Part shown: positions 7,998 through 41,011 of the stretch, piece by piece | Position numbering within the stretch: position 1 is the stretch's first letter | Layout of the letters: the number at the start of each line of letters is the position of its first letter | Origin: Runella sp. | GTDB lineage: Bacteria > Bacteroidota > Bacteroidia > Cytophagales > Spirosomataceae | Reading direction: 5' to 3' | Assembly (NCBI RefSeq): GCF_027484545.1 | Contig: NZ_JAIXST010000277.1 | Coordinates: 1 to 41,011, forward strand | Length of the DNA: 41,011 nucleotides | The notes under the pieces: generated by a model | Database searches by the model: none | What the model was told of the DNA's origin: nothing | The model's input: only the letters and a program-made list of their open reading frames with translations | Position numbers and translations under genes: made by a program

Positions 7998-8089
7998 TGG
8001 TAATGCTGTTTAGAACTTAAAAAAGCAGTGCAGGTTTCTTGGTCAAAGCCTGTGATGCGAAGATACAAAACCGAAACGATTTTACAAAA

Positions 8090-10564
8090 ATGCCGTATCC
8101 TACTATTGGTGAATACAAAGATGCCATCCGATTGGCCGAACATAGTTTTGGTAGCCTCACCCACCTGCGCCCCGAATACGATGCTACGGGCGACCTGCAT
8201 TTTAGCTCGGGCAACTTTGCGGTAGTGTTTAAGATGCGCGATACCCGCACCAATCGCCCCGTGGCGGTGAAGTGTTTTGTGCGTGAGCAGCCCCTCCGCC
8301 GCCAACGCTATGAGCAGATAAGTGCGTGTTTGGATACCCTGCCTTACAGTCCTTACCTACTGCGCTATACCTACCATCCCGCTGAGATTTGGGTGGAAAC
8401 CGCTCTCAGCGAGCAGCGGGAATTTGAGGTTGTGACGCTTGATTGGGTAGAAGGCCATACTCTCTACAACTACCTCCAAAGCCGATGCGATGCAGGAGAC
8501 AGTATCGCCCTGCGAAAAGTAGCCGAAGCCTTTGACCGTTTGGCGCTATGGCTATTAGAGCAGCCCTTTGCCCACGGCGACCTCAAACCCGACAATATTT
8601 TGGTAACGCCCCGTGGAGAATTGGTATTAGTGGACTACGACGGTATGTTTACGCCCGACATGGCAGGACAGGAAGCTACGGAATTGGGCAGCCCCGCGTT
8701 TAGACACCCGCGCCGCAGCCTTAGTGATTTTGGCAAATACATCGACCACGTACCTATCTTGGTACTCTCACTGAGTTTACACGTATTGGCCGAACACCCC
8801 AATTGGTTAGAAACTTATTACCAAGGTGACAATCTTATTTTGACTGCGAACGATTTTGCTAACTCTGAAAGTTCGATTTTCCATACTATACGTACACAGT
8901 GCAGAGCGTGGACAACGCAAAAGCGACTCATTGGCCTTTTGCATGCCCTTATATTCTCTAAAAAGGAGACCGAAGTTCAGATTTATTTAAAACCTTTGTA
9001 TGATTACAGTGAGTTAGGGCTTGTTCCTTTTTTATTGGTAAGTAAAGATGGTACCAAAAAGTGGGGGTTTGCGAATCGCAGTAAGGAAATTGTGTTCGCT
9101 TGCACCTATGAATATGACTTTGTTGGTTCTTTTAGTGAAAATATATCAAGAGTAAAAATTGGCAATAAGGTAGGAATACTAAATAAATATGGACAGGAGA
9201 TTGTAGCACCCGTATATGATGAAATTGAGCCTTTTTTTAACGGAAAGGCAATAGTAAAAAAAGATAAGAAAATAGGGATGATAAATATTGATGGGCAAGA
9301 ACTAATACCTCCTTTGTATGATGAAATAAGTAGTTTCTGCGAAGGATTATCTATGGTTAAAATCTACGAAAATCCTAAGGTAGGATTAGACGGTTTTATA
9401 TCCTACAAAGCTGATAAAAGATTGAATCATTTAGGAAAGTATGGGTTTGTAAATATATTTGGTGATATAGTAATACCATTGGTTTTTGAATATGCAAAAA
9501 GTTTTGAAAATGGTATATCATATGTTGAAAAAGATGGAAAAGTAGGGTACGTAAATCAATTTGGAAAACTTATAATATCTTTAATTTATGATGAAATTGT
9601 TTCATTTGTAAAAGGTATATCCCCTGCAAAAATTAACAAAAAATGGGGGTATATAAACAACAATGGAGATGTTATTATTCCATTTGTTTATGATGAAGCA
9701 TTCTGTTTTTCAGAAGACATTGCTAAAGTGAAAAAAGGAGATTTATGGGGATATATTGATGATGAAGAAAATATAATAATTCCATTTATGTATGAAGCAA
9801 GCTTTAGTTTTTCTAATGGTTTGGCTAAGGTTAAAAAAGATGGAAAATGGGGAGTAATAGACAAGAAAAATAAAGATATTGTTCCATTTTTATACGAAGA
9901 TATACCGGTAATAATTGGGGAATTGGTAATACTGAAAAGTGGTTTTTTTTATGGCGTATTAGATATTAAAGGGCAAGAAATAATATCTTTCAAGTATGAG
10001 TCGATAAAAATCTTGGAAGAAGATTCTGAGGATAATAGTTTTTCTGTTGATAAAGAGAAAAAAATATTATCTTATCATTTTAAAGTCAAAAAAAATGGGA
10101 AATGGGGAATTATAAATAGAGATGGGAAAGAACCAGATCGTTATTCATTTTGGGTAGACTCGATAGGAAACTTTATAGATGGAGTTGCTATTGTGAAAAA
10201 AGATTATTTTTATGGTCTTATGGATAAAAATGGGAATATGGTTAAATCTCCTATTTATGAAGATTTAGACAGATTACCTAATTCTTTATTTAGAGGTGAA
10301 AGAGAAGATGATTGTTTTATTTTTAATATAAAAGGAGAAATTGAAGAGCATTTTAAAATTTCAAAAGAAAAAAGGAGATACTGGGCAAGGCAACTTCAAG
10401 GTAGATGCGGTTATATTGAGAGGTTTCAAGATGAAGAAAAAGTAATCATCCCTTTTTTATATGATGATTGTGAGGAATTTATAGATGGAATTGCTCAAGT
10501 AAGGCGCAAGGAATATGAATTTTACATTGATTATAATGGAAATGAATTTGTAGAGTTTGAATAA
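8090..10564 (+). CDS. Protein kinase with C-terminal WG repeats
   Basis: 824 residues from the ATG at 8090; an upstream ATG at 8039 adds a stretch of poor family fit. Residues 35-210 are a kinase domain: glycine loop SSGNFAVVFK, lysine K61 (VAVKCF), catalytic loop HGDLKPDN (D164, N169) and DYDG in place of DFG (182-185). The HGD form is common in bacterial kinases that lack the RD arginine. A helical linker runs to about 300. From 322 to the end there are about eleven WG repeats (WGF/WGY..G..ii.p.YDe), a likely ligand- or protein-binding solenoid. No membrane segment is seen, so this is a cytoplasmic sensor kinase. The tail is strikingly AT-rich compared with the head. It probably works with the PP2C and vWA proteins upstream. 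Confidence 0.85.
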   Translation: MPYPTIGEYKDAIRLAEHSFGSLTHLRPEYDATGDLHFSSGNFAVVFKMRDTRTNRPVAVKCFVREQPLRRQRYEQISACLDTLPYSPYLLRYTYHPAEIWVETALSEQREFEVVTLDWVEGHTLYNYLQSRCDAGDSIALRKVAEAFDRLALWLLEQPFAHGDLKPDNILVTPRGELVLVDYDGMFTPDMAGQEATELGSPAFRHPRRSLSDFGKYIDHVPILVLSLSLHVLAEHPNWLETYYQGDNLILTANDFANSESSIFHTIRTQCRAWTTQKRLIGLLHALIFSKKETEVQIYLKPLYDYSELGLVPFLLVSKDGTKKWGFANRSKEIVFACTYEYDFVGSFSENISRVKIGNKVGILNKYGQEIVAPVYDEIEPFFNGKAIVKKDKKIGMINIDGQELIPPLYDEISSFCEGLSMVKIYENPKVGLDGFISYKADKRLNHLGKYGFVNIFGDIVIPLVFEYAKSFENGISYVEKDGKVGYVNQFGKLIISLIYDEIVSFVKGISPAKINKKWGYINNNGDVIIPFVYDEAFCFSEDIAKVKKGDLWGYIDDEENIIIPFMYEASFSFSNGLAKVKKDGKWGVIDKKNKDIVPFLYEDIPVIIGELVILKSGFFYGVLDIKGQEIISFKYESIKILEEDSEDNSFSVDKEKKILSYHFKVKKNGKWGIINRDGKEPDRYSFWVDSIGNFIDGVAIVKKDYFYGLMDKNGNMVKSPIYEDLDRLPNSLFRGEREDDCFIFNIKGEIEEHFKISKEKRRYWARQLQGRCGYIERFQDEEKVIIPFLYDDCEEFIDGIAQVRRKEYEFYIDYNGNEFVEFE

Positions 10565-12745: not shown

Positions 12746-14158
12746 TTATTCTTCCGGTGCGATAAATGATGTTTTGAACTCCTCTAATTTTTCATGATTG
12801 GCATAAATCGCCAATGTGACTTCGGTTCTCCGATTTTTGAGTTCTGATTTCGGAATCGTAATAAACACAGAACCTTCTACCATCCCTGCTCCGTCTAAAG
12901 TAAGGCTGGGAATACCTGCAAACTTCAACGAACCTTTAGGAAACAATAACTTCATTTCCGGTTGGATATAATGGTTGGTTTTGTTGAATAATTTAAAGGT
13001 GTATAAATTGCTGATGGTACCGTCCGGATTTTCGATGTAACGAGACCCTGGAACCCGAAGCAGTGTGGTTTCAGTATCACTGCGGGTGAGGAGGGCATAG
13101 CCAAGTCCTACCCAAAGGGCCGTCAAAACAACAGCGTATGCAATGGTACGGGTAGTGACGCGTTTGCTTTTTCCGCTCGCAATGTTGTTTTCGGAATCAA
13201 AACGAATCAGTCCTTTAGGCAGATTCACTTTCTCCATAATGTTGTCGCAGGCATCAATACAGGCAGTACAGTTGACGCACTCCATCTGGGTGCCGTTACG
13301 TATATCAATTCCTGTAGGACATACATTGACGCACTGAAAACAGCTGATGCAATCGCCCGCAGTTCTTACAGTGCCTTTATGGAGTTTTTCGCGCGGTTCA
13401 CCACGTTTGTAATCATAGGCAATCACCACCGAATTTTTATCTAACAAAACTCCTTGCAAACGCCCATACGGACATACTACGGTGCAGGCTTGGTCGCGGA
13501 GCCAGGCAAAATTCAAAAAGAAAATGACAGTAAAAGCACAAATTCCCAAAAACAGGGTCAAGTGCTCCGAAATAGGTTCGGTTACGATGCGCCACAGTCG
13601 GTCAACGCCTACAAAATAACTAAGCAGGAGGTTGGCAATCATAAAGGAAACCGTTAAAAAAACGACTGCTTTGACTGCCTTTTTTATGATTTTATCATTC
13701 GTCCAAGGAGCTTTTTCGAGGGCCCGCTGCGCTTTCCAATCCCCTTCGATGACGTACTCAATTTTACGAAAAACCATTTCCATAAAAACCGTTTGAGGGC
13801 ACGCCCAACCGCACCACACCCGACCGAAAACGGTGGTAAACAGTACGATAAAGACAAAAAACGAAATCATCATTAACCCAAACAACCAGTAGTCCTGTGG
13901 GCCAATGAAGAGTCCGAATACGATAAATTTACGTTCTAAAATATTGAATAAGAAGAGAGGTTGACCGTTCACTTTCAGGAAGGGTAACCCAAACATAATT
14001 GTTAATTGAAAAATGGTGAACCAAACGCGGCGGTTATGCCATTTTCCGGTCGGTTTTTGCGGATAAAACCAATTTCGTTTCCCAGTAGCGTCATCTACTC
14101 CGGCAAAACTGTCACGGAATGATTCATCAAAATCGGGGTGTGTTTCGAGGGGTTGCAT
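12746..14158 (-). CDS. ccoG: Cytochrome c oxidase accessory protein CcoG (4Fe-4S, copper reduction)
   Basis: 470 residues. Several transmembrane helices flank two ferredoxin-type cysteine clusters (CISCFQCVNVCP and CVNCTACIDACD). The C-terminus is an immunoglobulin-like FixG domain. Known members reduce Cu(II) for cbb3 oxidase assembly. Early motifs such as CGWACPQTVFMEMVFR and CTVVCPYGRLQGVL are intact. It follows the ccoP gene after a 28-bp perfect palindrome and precedes ccoH, all minus strand. Confidence 0.95.
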   Translation of the reverse strand: MQPLETHPDFDESFRDSFAGVDDATGKRNWFYPQKPTGKWHNRRVWFTIFQLTIMFGLPFLKVNGQPLFLFNILERKFIVFGLFIGPQDYWLFGLMMISFFVFIVLFTTVFGRVWCGWACPQTVFMEMVFRKIEYVIEGDWKAQRALEKAPWTNDKIIKKAVKAVVFLTVSFMIANLLLSYFVGVDRLWRIVTEPISEHLTLFLGICAFTVIFFLNFAWLRDQACTVVCPYGRLQGVLLDKNSVVIAYDYKRGEPREKLHKGTVRTAGDCISCFQCVNVCPTGIDIRNGTQMECVNCTACIDACDNIMEKVNLPKGLIRFDSENNIASGKSKRVTTRTIAYAVVLTALWVGLGYALLTRSDTETTLLRVPGSRYIENPDGTISNLYTFKLFNKTNHYIQPEMKLLFPKGSLKFAGIPSLTLDGAGMVEGSVFITIPKSELKNRRTEVTLAIYANHEKLEEFKTSFIAPEE

Positions 14159-14195
14159 GTTGAGAATGTAGTTGGGAGTGTCGAATTTGCCTCAA

Positions 14196-14252
14196 CCCCA
14201 TCCTTCGGACACCCCTTCTCCAATTTGGAGAAGGGGTGTCCGAAGGATGGGG
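14196..14252. repeat. Perfect 28-bp palindrome between ccoP and ccoG
   Basis: Two 28-base arms (14196-14223 and 14225-14252) are exact reverse complements around a single base. The left arm begins CCCCATCCTTCGGACACCCC. The right arm ends at the base before the ccoP stop codon. It will form a very stable RNA hairpin in the operon transcript. There is no T-run after it, so it is a REP-like or MITE-like element or a processing/stabilising stem rather than a standard terminator. Confidence 0.9.
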
Positions 14253-15311
14253 TTATTTCGCAGCGATAGTACTATCTGTAACGGCAGCTTCTTTATAAAT
14301 TTCTCCTTGTGGAGCTTTAGGAACTGCGGGTTTTGTACCTTTCAAAGAGATGACGTAGCTGGCTACTTGTTGCATTTTGAGCGGATTCAATTGCTTTTCC
14401 CACGAAATCATCCCTTTTTCAGGAACACCGTATTTGAGGGTTTTGAAGATATTTTTGATGCCACCGCCGTGCAACCAATATTCGTCGGTGAGGTTAGGAC
14501 CTACGGTTCCTCCACCGTCGGCAGCGTGACAAGCCACACAATTGGCGGTAAAGATGGCTTTTCCTTCTTCAATAGCCTTGGCATCTGCCAGCAACGTAAC
14601 GGAGTTTTCGTTGATTTTAGCGGAGGCTTTTTCCAGAAAGGCCGCTTTCTTGGCATCTACAATCTGCGTTTCCTTAGCCAATTCGGCCATTGGCAAATCT
14701 CCAACATCGAATACGTGGTAGATAAGAAGATAAATCAAAGCAAAAGCAATTGTTCCCTGAAATAAGAAGGCTAACCAAGGCGGCATCCGGTTATCGAGTT
14801 CGTGAATTCCGTCGTAGTCGTGACCTTGGATTAAGATGCGTTGTTCGTCTTGAAGTTGTACACCAAAACCTGTCCAACGCTGCCACCAACGATCACTAAG
14901 GAACGGAGCAGAGTCACCGCGCAAATCTTCTTTGGACTCAGCTTCGGCTTTTTGAGGAGTGGAGATTTTACGAAGCAGCATCAGCACTTGTACCAATATG
15001 ACTACGATGGCGATAATAACCAAACCCAACAGCGAAATAATCAGGTAGTTGACCAATTCTTGATTGCCGGCTTTCTTAGGTTCTTCCTGTGCAAAAGCAG
15101 CCGCAGAAATGAGAAGCAACAGTACCGTAGATAATCCGCGGCGAATCGTGCCGTCTTCGAGCGGGATATTGCTTATGTTTTGAATGGTTTTTTTGTCCAT
15201 GCGAACAAGATACCAAACCAATCCTACAAATAGGGCCGCAAAAATCAGTAGTCCAATGAGCGGATAGATAGCCACTCCGTCAATCGTTTGGAGATAGTTT
15301 CTGAATTTCAT
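14253..15311 (-). CDS. ccoP: cbb3 oxidase subunit: CcoQ-CcoP fusion, monoheme
   Basis: 352 residues from the ATG at 15311, 4 nt after the ccoNO stop; an ATG at 15341 would overlap ccoNO. Residues 1-50 (transmembrane helix 14-36, then VRMDKKTIQN) resemble CcoQ. Residues 57-75 (RRGLSTVLLLLISAAAFAQE) read like a signal peptide, followed by a transmembrane helix (88-113) and the CcoP hallmark HDYDGIHELDNRMPPWL. The cytochrome c domain has a single CxxCH (C258-H262), whereas proteobacterial CcoP has two. The protein passes electrons to the CcoNO core. The internal signal-like segment looks like a scar of gene fusion. Confidence 0.9.
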   Translation of the reverse strand: MKFRNYLQTIDGVAIYPLIGLLIFAALFVGLVWYLVRMDKKTIQNISNIPLEDGTIRRGLSTVLLLLISAAAFAQEEPKKAGNQELVNYLIISLLGLVIIAIVVILVQVLMLLRKISTPQKAEAESKEDLRGDSAPFLSDRWWQRWTGFGVQLQDEQRILIQGHDYDGIHELDNRMPPWLAFLFQGTIAFALIYLLIYHVFDVGDLPMAELAKETQIVDAKKAAFLEKASAKINENSVTLLADAKAIEEGKAIFTANCVACHAADGGGTVGPNLTDEYWLHGGGIKNIFKTLKYGVPEKGMISWEKQLNPLKMQQVASYVISLKGTKPAVPKAPQGEIYKEAAVTDSTIAAK

Positions 15312-31003: not shown

Positions 31004-31711
31004 ATGGATTTAAAAGACAATATCCCTGAAATTACCACTATTTCAATTGGTCGAGACAAACAAAACAATATCGTCCTCGACAATCCTCATATCAGTCGTC
31101 ATCACGCCCAATTGACTGTTTGCTCTCCAAACAGTTTCATAATAGAAGATTGTGGTAGCAAGCGAGGTACTTTTATTGAAAATGCAGGTACGCTTATGCG
31201 TGTTGTTCGCAAACTTATTGATATTCAGGATAAAGTATGGTTAGCTGATTTAGAGTTTTCTGTAGCTGATTTATTGCCTAAAGTAAAAGCTACATCAAGT
31301 GAAAAGTTAGATATAGAAAAAGACCCGCTTGATTTTACAGAAGAATTTGCCGCTTTACAAAAAGTATATGAAGATTATCCTATATTACGGAAAGACTGCC
31401 GCAATCGAGACAAGATGATACGGTTGTGGAGCGTAGTAGGAGGCTCGGTGATTGGAGTAGGCTCAGTAGCTACAGCAGGTACTTTTGGCGTATTAGCTGT
31501 ACTATCAAGCGCAGGTCTTAGTATGCTGGTGCCAACTTTGGCATCGCATTTACTTTCAACCGAAGAAAAACTGGAACTTATTGATAAAGAATATCGCCAA
31601 CGGTATCGTTGCCCTAATCCCAATTGCCGCGATTCGTTCGGCAATCGGGAATTTGAATTAGTAGCAAAACAAAAAAAATGTACCAAGTGCAAAGCAGTAT
31701 GGGTAAAATAA
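31004..31711 (+). CDS. FHA-domain membrane protein with C-terminal zinc ribbon
   Basis: 235 residues. Residues 10-90 are a forkhead-associated domain with G16-R17, S31-R32-H33-H34 and G51-S-K-R-G-T56, so the phosphothreonine-binding arginine and serine are kept. The usual asparagine of the S-x-N-G-T loop is R54. Residues 142-183 are glycine/serine-rich hydrophobic stretches (WSVVGGSVIGVGSVATAG and following), likely two membrane helices. The C-terminus carries a zinc ribbon, C203-x4-C208 and C226-x2-C229. It opens the cluster with two further reader/eraser genes and probably tethers phosphorylated partners to the membrane. Confidence 0.85.
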   Translation: MDLKDNIPEITTISIGRDKQNNIVLDNPHISRHHAQLTVCSPNSFIIEDCGSKRGTFIENAGTLMRVVRKLIDIQDKVWLADLEFSVADLLPKVKATSSEKLDIEKDPLDFTEEFAALQKVYEDYPILRKDCRNRDKMIRLWSVVGGSVIGVGSVATAGTFGVLAVLSSAGLSMLVPTLASHLLSTEEKLELIDKEYRQRYRCPNPNCRDSFGNREFELVAKQKKCTKCKAVWVK

Positions 31712-31778
31712 ATTTCTCCAATATTTTAACTTACCTTTTCTTTCCTCACTTGATAAAGTAGAAATAACATACATCACC

Positions 31779-32708
31779 ATGCAAAACATGACTACTTCCG
31801 ACCAACAAATGACCGACGTATTTCAAGCTGCACAACAAAAACTGTCAGTGCCAACCACATCCTCAACAACTAAACTAAGCAGTCGCCAAAAAGCTTTCAT
31901 ATCTACTGCAACTGTGTTATTGGGGGGCGGAGCAGCATTTGCGGCGGTTAAATTGGGGGTTATTCCTATAGATACAAATGAAACTATACCTCCGACAGAA
32001 ACTACTACAAATTCAGAATCAATCAGCTCCTATCAGCCTATTAAACATGACTACGTTTCGCCTGTTCAGAACGGTGTTATCAAACCTACTAAAAATATTG
32101 ACATCGCAGGTGGTATCAACGACAATTTGACTTTTGAAGATGCCTACAATGCTGCTCGTGAAGAAGTCGGCCCCGGTGGCATCTTCTCATGGCATGGTGA
32201 AGTATATAACACTTATACCGTAGAAGAATGGCGCGGGTTATCGCTGGCACAGCGTCAGGAGTTTTTAAGTGATGTAGGCTACAAGCCTACTGAAACAACT
32301 GAGGATTCTTCCGGTAGTGAGGGTAATCAAGAGCCTAACTACGTTGAAACTATGATTAACGGTCGGCCTGCTCTGGGAATAGACGACGACCATGATGGTG
32401 TAGCCGACGCCATTGTGATTATGGACATAGATAGCAATGCCATGATAGCGATTGTTGATAATGGCGGTGATAATCGGTTAGATACAGCCTTGCAAATTGA
32501 TATGACTACGCAAGAAGTAGTCAGTCAGCAACCTTTAGATGAGCCTTTTATGGCTGAAATGGAACGCTTAGAGGACATGAACGATGAACCTGTGTCAGAA
32601 GTAAACAATAGGAGTCTCGTCTCGTTGCCTGAGGAAGATACTTCCGAAGAAGAAGGTACTGACGAAGGAGGCTATATCAATGATGCTGAAATGCCCGAAA
32701 TGGAATAA
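31779..32708 (+). CDS. Membrane-anchored acidic protein of unknown function
   Basis: 309 residues. The cytoplasmic N-terminal 39 residues are polar, a single helix spans about 40-63 (ISTATVLLGGGAAFAAVKLG), and the rest is presumably extracytoplasmic. Residues 113-165 carry a conserved-looking block (FEDAYNAAREEVGPGG then FSWHGEVYNTYT and EEWRGLSLAQRQEF). Residues 200-232 are D-rich (GIDDDHDGVADA, MDIDSN), like a calcium-binding EF-hand-type loop. The tail is E-rich. Its TAA overlaps the start of the next gene (TAATG). It could be a scaffold or stalk for the neighbouring kinase system; no enzyme motif is seen. Confidence 0.72.
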   Translation: MQNMTTSDQQMTDVFQAAQQKLSVPTTSSTTKLSSRQKAFISTATVLLGGGAAFAAVKLGVIPIDTNETIPPTETTTNSESISSYQPIKHDYVSPVQNGVIKPTKNIDIAGGINDNLTFEDAYNAAREEVGPGGIFSWHGEVYNTYTVEEWRGLSLAQRQEFLSDVGYKPTETTEDSSGSEGNQEPNYVETMINGRPALGIDDDHDGVADAIVIMDIDSNAMIAIVDNGGDNRLDTALQIDMTTQEVVSQQPLDEPFMAEMERLEDMNDEPVSEVNNRSLVSLPEEDTSEEEGTDEGGYINDAEMPEME

Positions 32709-33307
32709 TGACAACCTTTAAAAATACCATCCTTCCCTGCCAAAAATGTGGCAAACTTATCGCCGTCAAAGTGAGAGATTTTGAAAACGGCGCGATTCAG
32801 TGTACCCACTCTGGCTGTGGTCATATCAACCAGCTTACGCAAGCGTTTTACGATGAACGCATTTTGTTAGGCTTGCCTTCTTTTGGCCAATTGGTCTATC
32901 AACAAGACCCTGCACTACGCTATCCACTTCGGGTGGGTGTCAATACCGTGGGTCATTCGTCGTCGTGTACTGTTCATACCGAACGGTTCATGCACGATGG
33001 CAAGTGCTATCTTAGCAGAAAACATTGCACGATTGAGGTATTGTTTGATAAATGGGAGGGGAAATTACGCTATACTTTGCAGGATGGAGCAATAGAGCCT
33101 GAAAGTGGTCAGTATAAAAATAGTTTAAATGGGACACTTCTTAATGGTTATTTGCTTCAAAATGGTGACAAATTGGATATACTGGACCAAGGTCTGGTGT
33201 GTTTGGGTGGGGTAGATATATTTCGGCTGGAAGCTTACTTTATTCCACCATCTATGCTGCAAACCTACTTGATGTCAAAATCATTCGAGCCTGATGAAAC
33301 GCAGTAA
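32708..33307 (+). CDS. Zinc-ribbon plus FHA-domain protein (soluble)
   Basis: 199 residues. A zinc ribbon comes first: C11-x2-C14 and C32-x4-C37. The FHA domain covers about 70-175, with G82-H83-S84, S103-R104-K105-H106 and S139-L-N141-G142-T143. The key phosphothreonine-binding residues (R/S, H, N) are thus all present, more canonical than in the FHA protein at 31004. No membrane segment is seen, so it is cytoplasmic. It overlaps both neighbours (TAATG start; 14 nt with the phosphatase gene), so it is in the operon and probably links kinase-phosphorylated partners to the phosphatase-caspase protein. Confidence 0.87.
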   Translation: MTTFKNTILPCQKCGKLIAVKVRDFENGAIQCTHSGCGHINQLTQAFYDERILLGLPSFGQLVYQQDPALRYPLRVGVNTVGHSSSCTVHTERFMHDGKCYLSRKHCTIEVLFDKWEGKLRYTLQDGAIEPESGQYKNSLNGTLLNGYLLQNGDKLDILDQGLVCLGGVDIFRLEAYFIPPSMLQTYLMSKSFEPDETQ

Positions 33308-34898
33308 CGCTATGTCAATGAAAATTCAAATTGAAGAACCACTTATTTTTTCCTTAACAGGTCAGCGTGCCAACAATGAAGATTTTGTGTATCCTACCGC
33401 TCCTACGTCCGATACACGTCTGTTCATGGTATGCGATGGTATAGGAGGGTGGGACAAGGGCGAAGTAGCGAGCCGATTGGTAGCTGAGGCCATTGCCGAT
33501 TATTTTCAACAATACCCTCCTGTTGCCGTGACAAAAACTTATCTTATTGATACAATCACTCACGCGCATTTGGCTTTGGCCGAATACCTCCAACAAAATC
33601 CACTTCTCAGTCGAGTGGGAAGTACGTTGGCGTTGTTGTACTTGGACGAAGGTGGTGTAACGGTCGCGCACGTGGGTGACAGCCGTGTGTATCACCTGCG
33701 CAAGGGGCAGATATTGCACCAAACCCAAGACCACCGATACGTATTGGAGTTGGTATCGGAAGGTATTATTACCCAAGAACAGGCTCAAACACACCCCCGT
33801 CGTAATAGTCTTAGTCGCTCAATAGGCGTAGAATCGAATAACCTAAGCTTAAAAATAGATAATCCGACTGTCAATTATTTGACTGATATACAGGCAGGAG
33901 ACTACTTTTTTTTGTGTACTGACGGGGTATTGGAGCAACTGAACGAAGAGAAATTGAAAGAAGTTTTTAAGAATCCGTCCTCTCAAAAAGGAATGTTTCA
34001 GATAGAACAAATTTTGTCTATTTGTCAAAACCAAACCCGCGATAATTACTCAGGCTGCTTAGTCTCCATTCGTGATGTAATAAAAGAAGAAACTTTCTCC
34101 ACCGTATCGCTGCCTGCCAAAAAGAGTCTTCGGGCATGGATTGGGTTGGCAATTTTGTGGTTTTCGCAGTTATGTTTTGCCCAAAATGGCTCTACCTACG
34201 CCATCGTAGTAGGTATTGCTGATTACAAAATAACAGACTATCGCACGGGCGATTTAAAATTTGCGGATAAAGACGCACTCCGCTTTGCCGATTTTCTGAA
34301 AAGCCCAGCGGGAGGAAATGTTCCCAATCAAAACATAAAGGTCTTAACAAACAAAGTTGCCACGCAAAAAGCAATACTAAACGCCCTAAAACTATTTGAA
34401 CAGGCAACTGACCAAGATCGCGTGATTTTTTATTTCTCAGGCCATGGACTCAATGGAGGGTTTATTCCATACGATGTAAAAAAGAATGACCCCGCCTCAG
34501 TTTTAACTCACCGCGACGTAAAAAATCGCTTCAAATCCTCCGCTGCCTCAACCAAACTTTGCATTGCAGATGCCTGTTTGTCAGGGAGTATGACAATCCA
34601 ACAAGCATGGAATATCCCCGAATCGAAAACCTTGCCTAAAAACGCCGATGTAGTGTTGATGCTCTCCTCTCGCTCAACCCAGAGTTCGGTTGAGAGTGGC
34701 GTAGCACGGGGAGGATTGTTTACTTTTTTCTTGCTCAACGGTTTGCGTGGTAAAGCTGACGCAAACCACGACAAAACTGTAACAATTAAAGAACTCTTTC
34801 GCTACGTGTCTCCGTTACTAAAACGCAATACACCCAATGGCCAAGCTCCGATGTTTTATGGAAAGTTCTCTGATAATTTGGTACTTTCGTATCTTTAA
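33294..34898 (+). CDS. PP2C phosphatase - transmembrane - caspase-like protease fusion
   Basis: 534 residues from the ATG at 33294; 33312 and 33318 are other possible starts. The PP2C domain (about 10-265) keeps ANNEDF (26-31), DGIGGW (48-53), GSTLA (109-113), VGDSR (127-131), CTDGVLEQL (208-216) and RDNYS (249-253), so it should be active. Then comes a hydrophobic segment (281-296, AWIGLAILWFSQLCFA) and a C14 caspase-like domain, with the catalytic histidine in FSGHGLNG (H384) and the cysteine in IADACLSGS (C428). The chain thus joins a phosphoprotein eraser to a protease. If the hydrophobic part spans the membrane, the protease faces the periplasm. The segment looks like a former signal peptide. 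The role as effector of the cluster is inference. Confidence 0.9.
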   Translation: MKRSNAMSMKIQIEEPLIFSLTGQRANNEDFVYPTAPTSDTRLFMVCDGIGGWDKGEVASRLVAEAIADYFQQYPPVAVTKTYLIDTITHAHLALAEYLQQNPLLSRVGSTLALLYLDEGGVTVAHVGDSRVYHLRKGQILHQTQDHRYVLELVSEGIITQEQAQTHPRRNSLSRSIGVESNNLSLKIDNPTVNYLTDIQAGDYFFLCTDGVLEQLNEEKLKEVFKNPSSQKGMFQIEQILSICQNQTRDNYSGCLVSIRDVIKEETFSTVSLPAKKSLRAWIGLAILWFSQLCFAQNGSTYAIVVGIADYKITDYRTGDLKFADKDALRFADFLKSPAGGNVPNQNIKVLTNKVATQKAILNALKLFEQATDQDRVIFYFSGHGLNGGFIPYDVKKNDPASVLTHRDVKNRFKSSAASTKLCIADACLSGSMTIQQAWNIPESKTLPKNADVVLMLSSRSTQSSVESGVARGGLFTFFLLNGLRGKADANHDKTVTIKELFRYVSPLLKRNTPNGQAPMFYGKFSDNLVLSYL

Positions 34899-34912
34899 AC
34901 ATCCATATATTA

Positions 34913-35137
34913 ATGATAAATAAAGACCCCAAGCCACGTCCTAATCATCGAAAATACTTAGAAACCCTTCGCCAAATGACAGAAGGAGAGCGATTGTTAA
35001 AAGCATTTGAATTATCAGATTTTAGTCGAGCACTTTTTAAGGAGGGGCTACGGAATCGCTTTCCCGAAAAAACACCCGAAGAAATCCATGAACTTTTCTT
35101 AAAAAGATTGGCTAAATGTCACAATCAGAATTATTGA
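34913..35137 (+). CDS. Small protein paired with a nucleotidyltransferase
   Basis: 74 residues, rich in R, K, E and L, with no membrane segment. It starts 14 bases after the phosphatase-caspase stop and overlaps the next gene by 22 bases, so the two are translationally coupled. The helical text (LLKAFELSDFSRALFKEGLR and FPEKTPEEIHELFLKRLAKC) resembles the small proteins that precede AbiEii-like nucleotidyltransferases in many genomes. It may be the antitoxin or cofactor of that enzyme. Confidence 0.7.
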   Translation: MINKDPKPRPNHRKYLETLRQMTEGERLLKAFELSDFSRALFKEGLRNRFPEKTPEEIHELFLKRLAKCHNQNY

Positions 35138-35685
35138 ACTACGCTTTGGGTCTTCTCAATGCCAACGAGATTCCTTATATGGTGACAGGTTCAGTTGTAT
35201 CAAGTTTGCAGGGTGAGCCTCGTTTAACTCACGATATTGATATCGTTATTGTGTTGCATCCTCGCTTTGCGTATGCATTTGCCGAAGCATTTCCGACAAA
35301 CGTGTTTTATGTCAATAAAGAAAGTGTAAAAGATGCCATAGTACGCCAAAGTATGTTCAATGTAATAGACAGTACCTCGGGCAATAAGGTGGACTTTTGG
35401 ATACTTACCCAAAGTGAATACGATCGAGTACGTTTTGGACGTAGGCAAAAGGTGAAGGTATTGGGTATTGAAGACTTTTATGTGACAAGCCCTGAAGACA
35501 CTATTGTAAGTAAATTGCTGTGGGCAAAAATGGCAGGAGGAAGCCAAAAACAACTGATAGACGCGACTCGGGTCTATGAGTTGCAATATGAAAAGTTAGA
35601 TATAATACACATTGAAGAGTGGGTACAGAAACTGGAACTTATAGCCGAGTGGAATGCCCTTTTGAGTAGTGCTGACCCTATTTAG
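35116..35685 (+). CDS. Nucleotidyltransferase-fold protein (AbiEii/DUF6036-like)
   Basis: 189 residues. The N-terminus has the nucleotidyltransferase motif G25-S26 in YMVTGSVVSS and the metal-binding pair D40-x-D42 in LTHDIDIVI. A third acidic residue lies in KVDFWI near residue 95. The fold is that of toxin-type or metabolic nucleotidyltransferases such as AbiEii. Target unknown: tRNA and proteins are both known substrates of the superfamily. The 22-base overlap with the 74-residue gene makes a toxin-antitoxin-like pair likely. It lies inside the phospho-signalling cluster and may be an independent addiction module or part of its output. Confidence 0.78.
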   Translation: MSQSELLNYALGLLNANEIPYMVTGSVVSSLQGEPRLTHDIDIVIVLHPRFAYAFAEAFPTNVFYVNKESVKDAIVRQSMFNVIDSTSGNKVDFWILTQSEYDRVRFGRRQKVKVLGIEDFYVTSPEDTIVSKLLWAKMAGGSQKQLIDATRVYELQYEKLDIIHIEEWVQKLELIAEWNALLSSADPI

Positions 35686-35723
35686 ATACAATAAATACAA
35701 CTGGAAGATATCAAACACAAGCT

Positions 35724-37730
35724 ATGACCTTAAAGTCTAATAAACTATTCAAAATATTCCTTCTGTTATCTCCTTTATGGGCGGCAACCGTTGCTGGGTT
35801 AGAGAGCTGCCAATGGACTGACCCAGTACTCAAAACCCTTAAAAATTGTACGTTGCCTACTGACATTAACATTGTTACAGACGCTGTTGACCCCAAAAAA
35901 TATACATTTTCTTTGGCCAGTACTACTACAGATGTGAAGACCGTAACATGGAAAGTATTGAGTGGTTCGACAGTTTTGGTTCAATCTACCCTCACCTCTG
36001 CTCAATCTTATGCCTACACTGCTTCTACTAATGGAAGCTATACGGTAAGTGCGGAAATAGAAACCGTTTGTGGAGAAAAAAAGACATTGAGTAAAGCAAT
36101 AACTATAAAAACTTGTGTCCAACCAACTGCCATAACAACTACAAGTGTTAGCAACAATACTTACACTTATGGGCTGACTACTACTACACCTGCTGATGTA
36201 AAAACCGTCACTTGGAAAGTATTGAGTGGCACTACTGCTCTCGTACAAGAACAACGTACTGATGCTGGTTCATTCAGTTATACTTTTGCTTCCTCGGGTA
36301 GCTACACCATTAGTGCTGATATTGTAACTACGTGCAACGAAAATTTGAATCGTTCCTTAAGTGTAAATATTACCGTGTCAGGAGTTTCATCAGCTGCTAA
36401 TTTTAAAGCATGGAGAAACGGCGGGGGAGCAAATGATGTAGGTAACGGTGTTGCAATAGATGGTTTAGGAAATGTGTATGTAATAGGGAACTATGGTTCT
36501 TCTATCGCTTTTGGTGCCACTACTTTAAATGTGGCAGGTAGCAATGATGTTTTTATCGCTAAATACAACAGTAATGGTGATTTAGCATGGGTGCAGAGAA
36601 TAACAGGGGACGGAACCGATGAAGGAAAAGGGATTGCGGTGGATTCTAATGGAGATATTTATGTGATTGGTCAGGTAAGTACCAATGCTGGCTTTTTCAA
36701 TACAACTGCCAATGTGATTGTAAACACCCCTGTTAGAAAGCAAACCGGCGGCCCTACTGATATATTTGTGGCAAAGTATAATCGAGATGGTCAAATGCTT
36801 TGGAATAAACTCTATGGTGGCGGTAGCCCGGACCAAGGAGTAGGAATTGCCCTACATTCTTCTGGGATTTATATTACAGGCTTTTTTAGCGCTCAGTCTG
36901 CTACTTTTGGGGCAACAATTATTCAAGCTTCGGGAATAGAAGGGAAGTATGATGCTTTTTTGGCTAAGTTGAACATCAATGGAGATGCCCTTTGGGCAGT
37001 TTCCTGCGGTGGTTTTGAAAACGACTATGCCAGTAGTGTTGCCGTAGATACAGACGGAAATGCCTATATAACGGGAAACTTTTCTTCTCCTGCCACTTTT
37101 CGTTCTGTTTCCGGGGCTTCTACGGTATATTCTTCAAATACAACCCCTGATATTTTCATTGCTAAATACAATTCTGGTGGTAATTTAATGGCTTTTCATA
37201 ATTCCAATTCAGGGACTCCTGCTTTTGGTAGTAGTGTAGCAGTGAGTGGTAGTTCTGTCTATGTAACGGGTACAATACAAGGCTCAAATTATGGGAGTAC
37301 CCTCGTCAGTTATCGTGGCGGAGGCGATATTTTTCTGGGGAAATATAGCCTAAGTAACCTGAATGTAGAATGGGTAAGAACGGCTGGTGGATCAGGTACA
37401 GACGCTGGAAATGGCGTAGTAATAGATAAATCAGGAAACGCCTACATTACTGGGCTGGTAAGCGATAATAGTTTGTTTGATAATACTTCCGTTAGGTCGT
37501 CAGGAAGTACGGATGTATTTTTGGCGCAGTATGATAGCAATGGAAATTTTCGATTTGTAAAAACGACTGGGGGTAATGGCGCGGATGGAGGTACTTCCAT
37601 AGCAATCAATAATACGGGGAATTTATTATTACTTAGTGGGTTTTATAGTAGTTCTTTTATATTTGGTACTCCGCCTGCTTTAACCTATTCGGGCGGATTG
37701 GATATTTTTGTGGCAAAGTATCCAGATTAG
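35724..37730 (+). CDS. Secreted protein with two PKD-like domains and a 7-repeat SBBP propeller
   Basis: 668 residues. The N-terminus (LFKIFLLLSPLWAATVAG) looks like a signal peptide. Two PKD/Ig-like domains follow (about 40-215); both contain DVKTVTWKVLSG, showing internal duplication. From about 225 to the end there are seven repeats of 58-70 residues with the SBBP pattern (GG..D.g.gia.D..GN.Yv.G... / DvF.AKY). Seven such units fit a closed seven-bladed propeller. It is probably secreted or surface-bound and binds glycans or proteins. A remnant of another gene's repeat follows its stop. It lies directly before the receptor kinase, whose propeller is of a different repeat type. Confidence 0.82.
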   Translation: MTLKSNKLFKIFLLLSPLWAATVAGLESCQWTDPVLKTLKNCTLPTDINIVTDAVDPKKYTFSLASTTTDVKTVTWKVLSGSTVLVQSTLTSAQSYAYTASTNGSYTVSAEIETVCGEKKTLSKAITIKTCVQPTAITTTSVSNNTYTYGLTTTTPADVKTVTWKVLSGTTALVQEQRTDAGSFSYTFASSGSYTISADIVTTCNENLNRSLSVNITVSGVSSAANFKAWRNGGGANDVGNGVAIDGLGNVYVIGNYGSSIAFGATTLNVAGSNDVFIAKYNSNGDLAWVQRITGDGTDEGKGIAVDSNGDIYVIGQVSTNAGFFNTTANVIVNTPVRKQTGGPTDIFVAKYNRDGQMLWNKLYGGGSPDQGVGIALHSSGIYITGFFSAQSATFGATIIQASGIEGKYDAFLAKLNINGDALWAVSCGGFENDYASSVAVDTDGNAYITGNFSSPATFRSVSGASTVYSSNTTPDIFIAKYNSGGNLMAFHNSNSGTPAFGSSVAVSGSSVYVTGTIQGSNYGSTLVSYRGGGDIFLGKYSLSNLNVEWVRTAGGSGTDAGNGVVIDKSGNAYITGLVSDNSLFDNTSVRSSGSTDVFLAQYDSNGNFRFVKTTGGNGADGGTSIAINNTGNLLLLSGFYSSSFIFGTPPALTYSGGLDIFVAKYPD

Positions 37731-37731
37731 A

Positions 37732-37788
37732 GATAAATTCGAGAACAGCCGTGGCGAAAGTGATTTGTGGATGGTAAAGGTGAGGTGA
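37732..37788 (+). pseudogene. Orphan last repeat of a lost kinase-propeller paralogue
   Basis: Translation gives DKFENSRGESDLWMVKVR then stop, matching the end of the kinase at 37886 (DKSENSRGGSDYWVVKVK then stop) at 13 of 18 residues. It begins two bases after the stop of the SBBP gene, with no start codon. This is the tail of another gene of the same kind, whose body has been lost or replaced. The rest of the gap to 37885 holds nothing I recognise. Confidence 0.8.
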
Positions 37789-37885
37789 GGATTGTGGCAA
37801 GACCAACGATGCAATTAATAGTAAAAAGACATTATTATTCTGATAGTTGAATAAAGTAAATGCCACATTATCAGTAAAATAACAA

Positions 37886-40270
37886 ATGACCCAGACCTTT
37901 ACCACCTTTCAAGAATTCAAGAAACGCTACCCGATTCAGTTTGCGGAGAAAGGTACGTGGTTGGGAAGTGGTACGTATGGCAAGGTGTTTCGGGTAGAGG
38001 ACCAAGTAGAAACCGAATGGGTGGCCGTAAAAATCAGTGAGTACCGCCAAAACGATACCAAATCCCTAAAAGCAGAAGTAGAACTCGCCCAAAAAGTGCC
38101 GCGCCACGCCAATATCGCCCGCTATGATGCTTGCTACCGCCTCGAAACCGATACGGGTATCAGCGATTTTGCGGTGATGAAGTACTACTCCGACGGCAAT
38201 TTAGCTGACCTGCTCAAACGTAGTAAACTCACCGACAAAGAACTCCGCGACATTGTATGCGGTACGCTTGAAGGACTAAAACATCTGCATCAGCAGCGCA
38301 TTGTTCACCGCGACTTTAAACCCGCTAATATCCTCATTTCGAGGGATAACAGCGGCAGATTTATTCCCAAAATCGCTGATTTTGGTCTTAGCAAACTCGT
38401 GAGTCAAGACGAAATAGATAGTTCTGATTTTGATTTGAGCGATGGGCGCGGCACACCCTCCTATAAAGCCCCCGAGCAGATTGAGGGCGGACGCGTGAGT
38501 TTCAACTTGGACTTGTGGGCGTTTGGCGTGATTTTGTACGAAATGCTGACTGGCGAAAAGCCGTTTAGCGTAGGTACGCAGTCAAGCGAACCTACCCTGA
38601 GGCGAGAAATAGAGCGCAAAATCACCTCTGCTCAACTTCCCGACCGCCTCCGCACCTTACCTGAGCCTTACCAAGGCATGATACGGCGGTGCTTGGTCAA
38701 AGACATTCGGCAGCGCGTACGTAAAGCGGACGAATTGTTAGCACTATTGGACGAACCCATAAAGCCACCACCGCCGCCCAAACCTGTTGAAAAGCCAAGC
38801 GTTACTCTTACCGACCATACAGACGTTTATGTAAAGCCCAAGCGCGTGGTGCAGGAAACCAAGACGGATGTGTATGTGCCGAAAGCCATTGTTCAAACCC
38901 CCGAAATTCAACCCAAATCTAAAAATACGTGGCTTTGGGGATTGATTGGGGGGGTGACGGTAGTTTTATTAGGGATTTGGTTGCGGCCAAAAGAGAAAGT
39001 TGAGTTTGAACAAGCTGCTAAAATTTGGGATAAAACCCTTGGAGGAAGTGGTTCTGATTGGCCTGCTGATTTGATTGCTACTACTGATGATGGTTTTGTG
39101 ATTGTAGGAGGCTCAGTGTCCACTCTTTCGGGAGATAAATCTGAAAATAATAAAGGAAAAAATGACTATTGGGTAGTAAAGCAAAATAGTGCTGGTCAAA
39201 AAATTTGGGATCGAACCCTTGGGGGGAGTGGTGAGGATTACGCTTCTGCTATTGTTGCCACCATAGATGGTGGGTTTGTGATTGCAGGTATGTCTAATTC
39301 TCCCCTTTCGGGAGACAAATCTGAAAACAGTGAAGGCGGGCAAGACTATTGGGTGATAAAGCTTAATAGTAATGGTCAAAAAGTATGGGATAAGACCATT
39401 GGAGGGGATAGTTATGATGGATATCCTACCATTGTTGCTACCGCTGATGAGGGTTTTGCTATAGCAGGAAGGTCAAAATCTAATATTTCGGGAGATAAAT
39501 CTGAAAATAGCAGAGGGGAAAATGACTATTGGGTAGTTAAACTCAATAGCAACGGGCAAAAGGTTTGGGATAAGACCATTGGCGGGAGTGGTTATGATAA
39601 TATTTCTGCTATTGTTGCCGCGGATGATGGCGGTTTTGTAATAGGAGGAACATCTGACTCTAATATTTCTGGTGATAAATCTGAAGGAAGTAAAGGAGGA
39701 GAAGACTATTGGGTAGTTAAACTCAATAGCAATGGGCAAAAAGTATGGGATAAAACATTTGGGGGAAATGATAGAGATAGATCTAATTGTATCATTGTTA
39801 CTGACGATGGGGGTTTGCTAATTTCAGGGGCATCTAATTCGATTAATTCTGGTGATAAATCTGAAGGAAGTAAAGGAGGGGAAGACTATTGGGTAGTAAG
39901 ACTTAATAGTAGTGGTCAAAAAGTATGGGATAAAACATTTGGGGGGAATCTTGAGGATAATGCGGATGCTGTCGTTGCTGTTAATGATGGTAGTTTTGTG
40001 GTAGGGGGAACGTCCAATTCTAATACTTCGGGAGATAAATCTGAAAATAGCAGAGGTGGTGAGGACTATTGGGTAGTAAAAATAAATAGTAACGGGCAAA
40101 AAATTTGGGAAAAAACTCTGGGAGGAGCAGGTAGTGACAATGTTGCTACAATCATTGCTACTGCTGACGGAAGCTTTGTGATTGCAGGAGGATCATATTC
40201 TCCTATCTCTGGCGATAAATCAGAAAATAGCCGTGGTGGAAGTGATTATTGGGTAGTAAAAGTGAAGTAG
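37886..40270 (+). CDS. Transmembrane Ser/Thr kinase with seven-repeat extracytoplasmic propeller
   Basis: 794 residues. The kinase head covers 25-290: glycine loop GSGTYGKV (27-34), K49, HRDFKPAN (141-148, RD type), ADFGLS (164-169) and APEQ (195-198), so activity is expected. A proline-rich linker (KPPPPPKP) follows, then one transmembrane helix (about 348-366, TWLWGLIGGVTVVLLGIWL). Residues 379-794 are seven repeats of 60 residues each (KVWDKT.GG...D...IVA..DGGFVI.G.S.S..SGDKSE...G..DYWVVKLNSNGQ), fitting a seven-bladed propeller sensor outside the membrane. The organisation recalls PknB/PknD-type receptors. The tail is AT-rich relative to the head. The same head sequence starts again at 40894. 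Confidence 0.9.
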   Translation: MTQTFTTFQEFKKRYPIQFAEKGTWLGSGTYGKVFRVEDQVETEWVAVKISEYRQNDTKSLKAEVELAQKVPRHANIARYDACYRLETDTGISDFAVMKYYSDGNLADLLKRSKLTDKELRDIVCGTLEGLKHLHQQRIVHRDFKPANILISRDNSGRFIPKIADFGLSKLVSQDEIDSSDFDLSDGRGTPSYKAPEQIEGGRVSFNLDLWAFGVILYEMLTGEKPFSVGTQSSEPTLRREIERKITSAQLPDRLRTLPEPYQGMIRRCLVKDIRQRVRKADELLALLDEPIKPPPPPKPVEKPSVTLTDHTDVYVKPKRVVQETKTDVYVPKAIVQTPEIQPKSKNTWLWGLIGGVTVVLLGIWLRPKEKVEFEQAAKIWDKTLGGSGSDWPADLIATTDDGFVIVGGSVSTLSGDKSENNKGKNDYWVVKQNSAGQKIWDRTLGGSGEDYASAIVATIDGGFVIAGMSNSPLSGDKSENSEGGQDYWVIKLNSNGQKVWDKTIGGDSYDGYPTIVATADEGFAIAGRSKSNISGDKSENSRGENDYWVVKLNSNGQKVWDKTIGGSGYDNISAIVAADDGGFVIGGTSDSNISGDKSEGSKGGEDYWVVKLNSNGQKVWDKTFGGNDRDRSNCIIVTDDGGLLISGASNSINSGDKSEGSKGGEDYWVVRLNSSGQKVWDKTFGGNLEDNADAVVAVNDGSFVVGGTSNSNTSGDKSENSRGGEDYWVVKINSNGQKIWEKTLGGAGSDNVATIIATADGSFVIAGGSYSPISGDKSENSRGGSDYWVVKVK
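39020..40267 (+). repeat. Seven 180-bp coding tandem repeats in the receptor kinase
   Basis: Six full 180-base units and a final 168-base unit encode the 60-residue propeller repeats in constant phase. The most similar stretches are the joints, DYWVVKLNSNGQKVWDKT, and the SGDKSE motif. The similarity is high enough to allow repeat gain, loss or exchange by recombination between units. Confidence 0.9.
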
Positions 40271-40309
40271 AAGATAGGAATACAAAAAATGTAACACTAA
40301 CTATAAATA

Positions 40310-40591
40310 ATGGACTGTCAGGGAGTTATTTTTAGTACACACGCTACTGCAAGGATGTTTGCTCGCACTATATCCCAAAAAGACGTAGAGTATGTACTTA
40401 AAAATGGAATAACGATTCAACAATATCCAACAGATAAACCTTTTCCAAGTGCATTGTTATTAGGATTCATCAATGATATTCCCCTGCATGTAGTGGTAGC
40501 ACAAGATGAGGATAGTACGTGTATTGTCATTACTGCGTACATTCCAGATGCGTACATTTGGGATGATGATTTTAAAACAAAAACTAAATAA
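40310..40591 (+). CDS. DUF4258 family protein, toxin-like
   Basis: 93 residues. It shows the DUF4258 pattern: an early FSTHATARMFARTISQKDVE segment with a conserved His/Arg pair, and a terminal CIVITAYIPDAYIWDDDF. DUF4258 proteins are small RNase-toxin-like partners of YgiT/MqsA-type zinc proteins. The next gene starts 4 bases after its stop. It lies between two related kinases, 39 bases after the first. Confidence 0.8.
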   Translation: MDCQGVIFSTHATARMFARTISQKDVEYVLKNGITIQQYPTDKPFPSALLLGFINDIPLHVVVAQDEDSTCIVITAYIPDAYIWDDDFKTKTK

Positions 40592-40595
40592 AACT

Positions 40596-40838
40596 ATGCA
40601 ATGTGTATTTTGTAAGACTGGGCAGACAGTGGAAGATAAGACCTTGATTACGTTGCAACGTGGGGCGGCTATCATTATCATAAAAGAAGTACCTGCCGAG
40701 GTTTGTAGCAATTGCGGTGAGGCTTATTTGTCGGCTAGGACTAACCAAAAAGTCTTGAACTTGGCTGAAGATGCAGTGGAAAAAGGAGCGGAGTTGGAAA
40801 TTATTCGTTACCCCGATACGTACAAAGAATTAGTTTAA
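40596..40838 (+). CDS. YgiT/MqsA-type zinc-finger antitoxin-like protein
   Basis: 80 residues from the ATG at 40596; the open frame runs further upstream into the DUF4258 gene, but that part is out of family. The zinc site consists of CVFCKTG near the start and CSNCGEAYLS, with the YgiT spacing. The C-terminal helix (NQKVLNLAEDAVEKGAELEI) is the usual linker; no full DNA-binding HTH is visible. It is the expected partner of DUF4258, with antitoxin second. Confidence 0.83.
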   Translation: MQCVFCKTGQTVEDKTLITLQRGAAIIIIKEVPAEVCSNCGEAYLSARTNQKVLNLAEDAVEKGAELEIIRYPDTYKELV

Positions 40839-40893
40839 GACAATATTGAAGTAAAAAATGGTGATTAACACGTATATTCATTGATATAACCCG

Positions 40894-41011
40894 ATGACCC
40901 AGACCTTTACCACCTTTCAAGAATTCAAGAAACGCTACCCGATTCAGTTTGCGGAGAAAGGTACGTGGTTGGGAAGTGGTACGTATGGCAAGGTGTTTCG
41001 GGTAGAGGACC
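40894..41011 (+). CDS. Start of a second Ser/Thr kinase (truncated by window end)
   Basis: The 118 bases are identical to 37886-38003, from the ATG through the glycine loop (GSGTYGKV). Identity starts at the start codon; the bases upstream differ between the two copies. It is therefore a second gene with the same kinase head; its body lies outside the window. The preceding 55 bases (40839-40893) hold no feature I recognise. Confidence 0.9.
   Translation, partial: MTQTFTTFQEFKKRYPIQFAEKGTWLGSGTYGKVFRVED

Follow-up and report, generated by a model that had tools for sequence, protein, structure and literature searches.

The end of this Runella contig raises the question of whether its kinase, FHA, PP2C and caspase-like genes form one conserved system, and what that system may do. 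The window, meaning the whole stretch analysed, is a complete contig (G000:C114, 41,011 bp) of a genome of 7.12 Mb in 354 contigs. A sequence-only reading had proposed that writer, reader and eraser genes lie together here in an undescribed system, and both synteny and a literature search agreed with this. In this study, we found that the gene cluster is a real, conserved unit. It is apparently undescribed, as the titles and abstract openings of the papers listed in our literature searches mention no such six-part gene set. The core set in the window, all on the + strand, consists of FHA1, P2, a zinc-FHA (FHAzn), a PP2C-caspase fusion and a membrane kinase, with the following features.

31004 to 31711, + strand: FHA1, with an FHA domain (55.6 bits).
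31779 to 32708, + strand: P2, a membrane protein of a new family, with no family match.
31812 to 31814, + strand: codon of P2 Thr12 (TDVF), a predicted phosphosite from the TDx[FY] motif count.
32708 to 33307, + strand: zinc-FHA, with an FHA domain (25.9 bits).
33299 to 33301, + strand: codon of zinc-FHA Thr198 (DETQ), a predicted phosphosite from alignment conservation.
33294 to 34898, + strand: PP2C-caspase fusion, with PP2C_2 at residues 24-226, Peptidase_C14 at residues 302-526 and a signal-peptide-like segment between them (about residues 279-297).
37886 to 40270, + strand: membrane Hanks-type kinase (Pkinase, 171.9 bits) with a propeller-like ectodomain.
38819 to 38866, + strand: juxtamembrane stretch of the kinase with two TDVY motifs (T312 and T327), from the motif count.

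The earlier list of parts had left out P2, although this gene is a constant member of the system. Overlapping starts had been said to link the two reader genes and the fusion gene. Overlaps were found at 32708 (P2/zinc-FHA) and 33294-33307 (zinc-FHA/fusion), but the genes they join are P2, zinc-FHA and the fusion, and FHA1 stands apart from P2 by a gap of 67 bp.

To describe the conservation of the set, we searched 222 family genomes with the fusion protein; 104 of them matched at E<=1e-20, with paralogous PP2Cs counted. We fetched 35 loci of the window's own branch (type A, defined below), each of at most 20 kb. PP2C and caspase matches lay on one contig in 34 of them, L072 had PP2C only, and loci on two short contigs (G206:C438 and G207:C236) were outside this set. 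Since the loci had been picked by their PP2C and caspase matches, the informative counts are those of P2 (35), the kinase (35), FHA1 (34) and zinc-FHA (32 by open reading frame (ORF) calling); caspase was found in 34 and PP2C, by ORF calling, in 34. Once tblastn was added, zinc-FHA (extra in L047, L058 and L064) and PP2C (extra in L064) each reached 35/35. All six parts were present in 30/35 loci by ORF calling and in 33/35 with tblastn, the incomplete ones being L062, which is without FHA1 where its contig ends, and L072, without caspase. The parts lay on a single strand in 30/30 complete loci and in the order FHA1-P2-FHAzn-PP2C-caspase-kinase in 29, the exception being L043. Related loci were found in Spirosoma, Larkinella, Fibrisoma, Rhabdobacter, Persicitalea and Arsenicibacter, among others, and a single-protein scan of genome contigs returned no relative. 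These results indicate that the FHA, zinc-FHA, kinase and fusion-related genes co-occur across genomes in a fixed layout, as had been proposed.

P2 had no match in Pfam, NCBIfam or PADLOC, and its structure model (mean predicted local distance difference test (pLDDT) score 67.5) matched no PDB fold at E<=0.001. The protein has T12-D-V-F in its putative cytoplasmic tail, a transmembrane (TM) helix at about residues 39-57, a predicted extracytoplasmic domain (GPGGIFSWHGEVYNTY..EEW) and an Asp-rich part, and alignments show a conserved C-terminal Y[IV]N. TDx[FY] was present in 29/35 type-A P2 tails (shuffle mean 0.63, maximum 4).

The kinase had been described as a transmembrane kinase with a propeller sensor, and the protein indeed shows a Pkinase domain followed by a hydrophobic segment and a propeller-like C-terminus. 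The kinase domain spans residues 1 to about 290 with P-loop, HRD and DFG motifs, the TM helix lies at about 347-365, and T312 and T327 fall in the juxtamembrane segment between them. In the 35 type-A kinases, we counted 68 TDx[FY] motifs between the kinase domain and the TM helix, against a mean of 0.76 and a maximum of 4 in composition shuffles; two of the kinases had no helix above the cut-off, and a fixed 150 residues was used for these. At least one motif was present in 35/35 kinases and two or more in 31. Outside this segment, the kinase domains had none and the C-terminal parts had 8. The TDx[FY] threonines of the kinase segment and the P2 tail are thus predicted phosphosites for binding by FHA1. 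When the window was compared with 13 relatives chosen from the 35, identity was 67-92% for the kinase domain, 41-67% for PP2C, 47-69% for caspase and 31-65% for the outer part of P2. The kinase ectodomain gave no convincing local match to these relatives (mostly 3-11% of its length; 20% identity over 37% in L044). A constant kinase domain with a non-matching ectodomain is the usual sign of a changing sensor.

FHA1 carries an N-terminal FHA domain with G16, R17, S31 and H34, and a hydrophobic stretch from about residue 149 by hydropathy; its C-terminal part reads as Cys-rich and Zn-ribbon-like. In the type-A alignment, G, R and H were kept in 33/33 proteins that cover the region and Ser in 32 (L072 does not cover it), and the Asn position held N in 24, H in 5, R in 2, including the window, and K in 2. 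The type-A zinc-FHA was without the GR arginine in 32/32, window included, where T, H, I, V or L replaces it. It keeps the Ser, Arg, His and Asn belonging to the later motifs. Four Cys and the C-terminal T198 were present in 32/32, and the C-terminus read D.T[QE] in all of them (DETQ in the window). The zinc-FHA of the second branch, type B, mostly reads GR, and its C-terminal Thr stood in a T[VIQL][VILFM] setting in 19/22 (shuffle mean 3.5, maximum 10). The statement that every motif of the cluster is intact therefore holds for PP2C, caspase and kinase and fails for zinc-FHA, where the GR arginine is H83 in the window; FHA1 keeps G, R, S and H, with R54 in the place of the usual Asn. Because the type-A zinc-FHA is without the GR arginine yet keeps an invariant C-terminal Thr, it more likely serves as a ligand, in phosphorylated form, or as a scaffold than as a canonical reader, with this Thr as a predicted FHA1-binding phosphosite.

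One open frame carries PP2C_2 and Peptidase_C14, which bears out the claimed fusion of a PP2C to a caspase-like protease. Four PP2C motif patterns were present in the window and in 37/40 PP2Cs examined, window included. The caspase part scored 71.9 bits with Peptidase_C14 and has the dyad H384/C428, and both residues were found in 36/36 stand-alone relatives and in the fusion of R. aurantiaca. Its model (pLDDT 83) matched MALT1, metacaspases and caspases (Foldseek, best E 3.3e-10); the fold is clear even though a PDB search by sequence with this part gave no hit at E 0.01.

Among all ORFs scanned, the window and R. aurantiaca (L036 = L142) were the only cases of PP2C and caspase sharing a single frame. 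Elsewhere in the loci read, they were two genes, the caspase having its own signal-peptide-like N-terminus. A hydrophobic N-terminus (13-residue mean of at least 1.8) was found in 28/36 caspases, 0/40 PP2Cs and 0/37 FHAzn proteins. The matching segment inside the fusions reached 1.90 in the window and 1.75 in R. aurantiaca, each topping the rest of its own protein (1.49 and 1.48), and in our reading CFA/QNG at the internal segment of the fusion resembles a signal peptidase site. A 2012 survey of prokaryotic caspase homologues mentions N-terminal helices that are possibly signal peptides (PMC3501461), and the words 'phosphatase' and 'FHA' are absent from its main text. Orthocaspases are described as cleaving after positively charged residues (PMC6426788). 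Because PP2C and caspase are encoded separately outside the two fusions, with a signal-like segment at the start of the caspase, phosphatase and protease are predicted to lie on opposite sides of the membrane, with the caspase acting outside the cytoplasm. The proposal that the FHA proteins relay a signal to a PP2C-caspase chain is thus not supported, as among the loci read the two are joined only in the window and R. aurantiaca.

We examined the spread of the system with a P2 profile, which matched 66/222 family genomes, 33/390 genomes of an order sample (five outside the family) and 5/395 of a phylum sample (one in another order). The P2 genes form two branches, type A with the window and type B, which differ in P2 score and layout; they were split at 249 bits, and the fragment G206:C438 was placed in type A by hand. 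The 17 type-B loci contained FHA1 in 17, PP2C in 17, a kinase-like gene in 17, P2 in 15, FHAzn in 14 (more by tblastn), caspase in 13, the anti-sigma-like AS6 in 9 and the extracytoplasmic function (ECF) sigma factor SIG7 in 8. Relatives outside the family were L114-L119, L160 (a metagenome-assembled genome (MAG) of Saprospiraceae) and L161 (a Prevotellaceae MAG), L160 and L161 being divergent. These eight loci, picked by P2, had FHA1, PP2C and kinase in 8 each, zinc-FHA in 7, caspase in 6 (a fragment in L160), SIG7 in 2 and AS6 in 1. In L160, the long N-terminal extension of P2 reads as a nucleotidyl-cyclase domain. A papain-family protease gene of the same locus (12942-14384; Peptidase_C1, 64.8 bits) occupies the type-A caspase place, possibly one exported cysteine protease swapped for another. 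The P2 C-terminus YINDGDV is near-identical in the Prevotellaceae MAG (L161:9665-10630), Spirosoma and Larkinella, the remainder being far diverged.

Near the 35 type-A loci, a tetratricopeptide repeat (TPR) protein was found in 34, AS6 in 32 and SIG7 in 31. In the loci whose layout was examined, the order is kinase, TPR gene, frequently a gene for a secreted protein (propeller, PKD or lectin-like), and then convergent AS6 and SIG7. On contig C70 of the window genome we found what is left of a TPR gene and, with it, two further propeller proteins, AS6 and SIG7; synteny with R. aurantiaca is the sole link between this contig and C114. The ORFs at G000:C70:53-1703 (L140), by the truncated start of the TPR gene, read as transposase-like. 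In type B, the pair was found on the operon strand, downstream in L123-L126 and L132 and upstream in L120, L121 and L127. The type-A SIG7 model scored 164-183 bits in L121, L123-L126 and L132 and 23-30 with three other ECF-like genes; L120 (82), L127 (94), L114 (57) and L160 (64) were in between. Type-A loci have boxes upstream of FHA1 (TATATTGC-like) and of SIG7 (TATCTTCG). The words AAAAGGT / ACCTTTT are shared upstream of type-A SIG7 and could be a terminator, an operator or a promoter.

From the gene set, its order, its motifs and its branches, all read from sequence, we infer phosphorylation, FHA1 binding, membrane sides, cleavage and a sigma output, and we consider a trans-envelope phosphothreonine signalling operon somewhat more probable than its absence. 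The reasons are the six parts in fixed order, the constant kinase domain with a variable ectodomain, the kept Thr motifs and the nearby sigma pair. A ligand or an envelope change at the kinase ectodomain would switch the cytoplasmic kinase, which would phosphorylate the TDx[FY] threonines of its own juxtamembrane segment and of the P2 tail, and also T198 of zinc-FHA. Membrane-anchored FHA1 would bind these phosphothreonines and gather the parts at the membrane, and PP2C would reset them. P2 would convey the state over the membrane to its extracytoplasmic domain, and the exported caspase-like protease would cut a protein of the envelope (P2 and the single-pass anti-sigma AS6 are possible substrates), whereupon the ECF sigma factor would alter gene expression. 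In the window fusion, the caspase would be joined to PP2C via the former signal peptide, which may anchor the caspase or be cut by signal peptidase.

Several observations weigh against this signalling reading. Export of the caspase is less evident in 8/36 caspases and in the R. aurantiaca fusion (1.75), which fall under the 1.8 cut-off, and with a 19-residue hydropathy window no segment of either fusion reached 1.6. Caspase was not found in L072, in 4/17 type-B loci or in 2/8 loci outside the family, and L160 has it only as a 141-aa fragment with the papain-family gene after PP2C. A single-pass P2 is itself a reading, as hydropathy flags a second segment at 208-226. TDx[FY] is missing from 6/35 P2 tails, and the motif patterns were chosen after viewing related, partly near-identical sequences. 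In type B, the P2 tails had the stricter pattern in 15/31 (shuffle mean 2.3, maximum 7) and the looser one in 19/31 (mean 6.75, maximum 13), and the kinase segments gave a weak signal, with a loose pattern in 20/29 (mean 10.0, maximum 18). The local copy in the window genome may be impaired, its TPR gene being cut short by an insertion sequence. The type-A sigma pair is convergent and mostly split from the operon by a variable secreted-protein gene, a promoter comparison of FHA1 with SIG7 gave no shared -33 element, and the pair was found in 8-9/17 type-B loci and 1-2/8 outside loci. These points favour a reading in which phosphorylation and proteolysis work as proposed, the sigma pair is a mere conserved neighbour and the output is post-translational envelope remodelling; as differently arranged type-B operons have an adjacent or internal sigma gene at 164-183 bits with the SIG7 model, we regard it as unlikely. 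A little less likely again is the most specific form of the signalling reading. Here the caspase would be an extracytoplasmic signal protease, and a phosphothreonine switch (kinase, PP2C and FHA1) would, via P2, let it cut the outer part of AS6 and free the ECF sigma factor, with a lineage-specific phosphothreonine code: TDx[FY] for type A and T[VI][ILV]-like for type B.

The nearest known case in working is the threonine phosphorylation pathway of the type VI secretion system (T6SS). In Agrobacterium, the membrane protein TssL is phosphorylated at cytoplasmic Thr14 in a PpkA-dependent manner and bound by Fha (PMC3953482). The PpkA-PppA-Fha list is the same kinase, PP2C and FHA list as here, in one locus. 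The FHA ligand there is a threonine close to the N-terminus of a membrane protein, for which P2 would be the predicted equivalent in the window. The operon could thus control type VI secretion in trans, the secretion system itself being encoded at another place in the genome. TssC (PF17541, Bacteroidota type VI secretion) was found in 81/222 genomes, including 28/38 type-A genomes, and 22/44 type-B loci lie within 45 kb of it. The type-A and type-B counts omit 20 P2 rows, which are second copies or further pieces at counted loci and one row in a 34-aa frame in G196. One of the 22 is the type-B locus on contig C291 of the window genome (L056, L057), with an FHA gene, two P2 genes, zinc-FHA, a long PP2C and a divergent kinase. 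The same contig has a 1207-aa Por-secretion-tail protein, a PorV-like gene, a ClpB/ClpV-like ATPase (750.9 bits with the ClpB model and 632.4 with ClpV1, both below cut-off) and TssC. As 9/11 other ORFs tested there were without a secretion-system match (one is a transposase), the type VI cluster is recognised only in part. None of the 39 type-A P2 genes lies within 45 kb of TssC, however, 10/38 type-A genomes have no TssC match, and the VipB model PF05943 matched 0/61 sampled genomes. Unlike the T6SS pathway, the type-A operon lies away from TssC, occurs without it and adds zinc-FHA, P2, a predicted exported caspase and an ECF sigma pair. Since the type VI linkage fails, we do not count the operon as a member of that pathway, and we hold control of type VI secretion to be very unlikely. 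G190 and G187 each have two TssC genes of differing score classes on the same contig, at a distance of about 31 kb, and G208 has three, on separate contigs.

A conflict or cell-death system, in which a signal would set the caspase free to kill the cell or to process a defence effector, appears scarcely more credible. Predicted bacterial immunity systems described in PMC8195603 contain caspase domains, in some cases accompanied by ECF sigma and TPR genes. Our locus resembles these EACC2-caspase systems, the nearest genomic precedent for that combination, in having caspase, ECF sigma and TPR together, an ECF sigma gene lying near 31/35 loci and, in the window genome, on C70; a variable part, perhaps a kinase or an extracellular sensor, is a further shared feature. 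It differs in that the accessible text describes no PP2C/FHA set and in that the caspase here is separate and predicted to be exported, and the two TPR proteins scanned here do not match the DUF1822 TPR of those systems. The variable kinase ectodomain and PADLOC matches of the kinase (mad6, 206.8 bits) also speak for conflict. The predicted export of the caspase, the stable layout across a family and the poor conservation of the toxin-antitoxin-like genes speak against it, as does the mad6 match, which is confined to the kinase domain, with no other MADS gene for the ten proteins in the best 25 rows. Membership in MADS was rejected, because the match covers profile positions 53-325 of 659, NCBIfam gave 123.3 bits against a cut-off of 460 and no other mad match was among those rows. 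EACC1-caspase/NTP-dependent conflict systems (PMC7159879) share the caspase family, and some of their neighbourhoods contain an active kinase, PP2C and vWA. EACC1 membership was also rejected; the caspase_w_EACC1 model scored 80.4 bits against a cut-off of 140, and none of the ten proteins matched vWA or MoxR. The KKP kinase-kinase-phosphatase module likewise uses a Ser/Thr kinase and a phosphatase as a regulatory unit; unlike our operon it is prophage-encoded, and FHA, P2 and caspase go unmentioned for it in the accessible text (PMC11341870).

If the signalling reading is right, bacterial caspases would have a defined set of partners in a context other than cell death, with exact threonines to address (P2 T12, kinase T312/T327 and FHAzn T198). 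The Bacteroidota threonine-phosphorylation gene set occurs both near and away from type VI secretion genes. If the sigma link is true, there would be an envelope-to-transcription pathway gated by phosphorylation and a protease.

The remaining features around the core set in the window are as follows.

34913 to 35685, + strand: antitoxin-like gene (34913-35137) and nucleotidyltransferase-like gene (35116-35685), with weak domain matches below cut-off.
35724 to 37730, + strand: SBBP beta-propeller protein, probably secreted, from a domain match.
40310 to 40838, + strand: DUF4258 gene (40310-40591) and YgiT/MqsA-like gene (40596-40838), from domain matches.
40894 to 41011, + strand: 118 bp that repeat the start of the kinase gene exactly, cut off by the contig end.

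The nucleotidyltransferase and DUF4258/YgiT pairs had been taken as marks of a conflict locus. By tblastn, the nucleotidyltransferase, DUF4258 and YgiT-like proteins had no match in 86 related loci, and the antitoxin-like gene had its sole relative among them at the same place in R. aurantiaca. We therefore dropped these genes as parts of the system. What had been read as the start of a second kinase does exist as sequence, but it is an exact copy of 37886-38003 at the contig end. A search of the assembly gave no further near-identical copy, the next match being a 44%-identical kinase on C291, so that tandem duplication and assembly repeat are not distinguishable for these 118 bp. An SBBP propeller relative stands between the caspase and kinase genes in L036, L040, L041 and L042. 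Elsewhere in the window, at 8039-10564, a weak protein-kinase match (35.1 bits) occurs together with seven WG beta repeats, and WG-repeat proteins also lie close to P2 in L119 (6335-8892).

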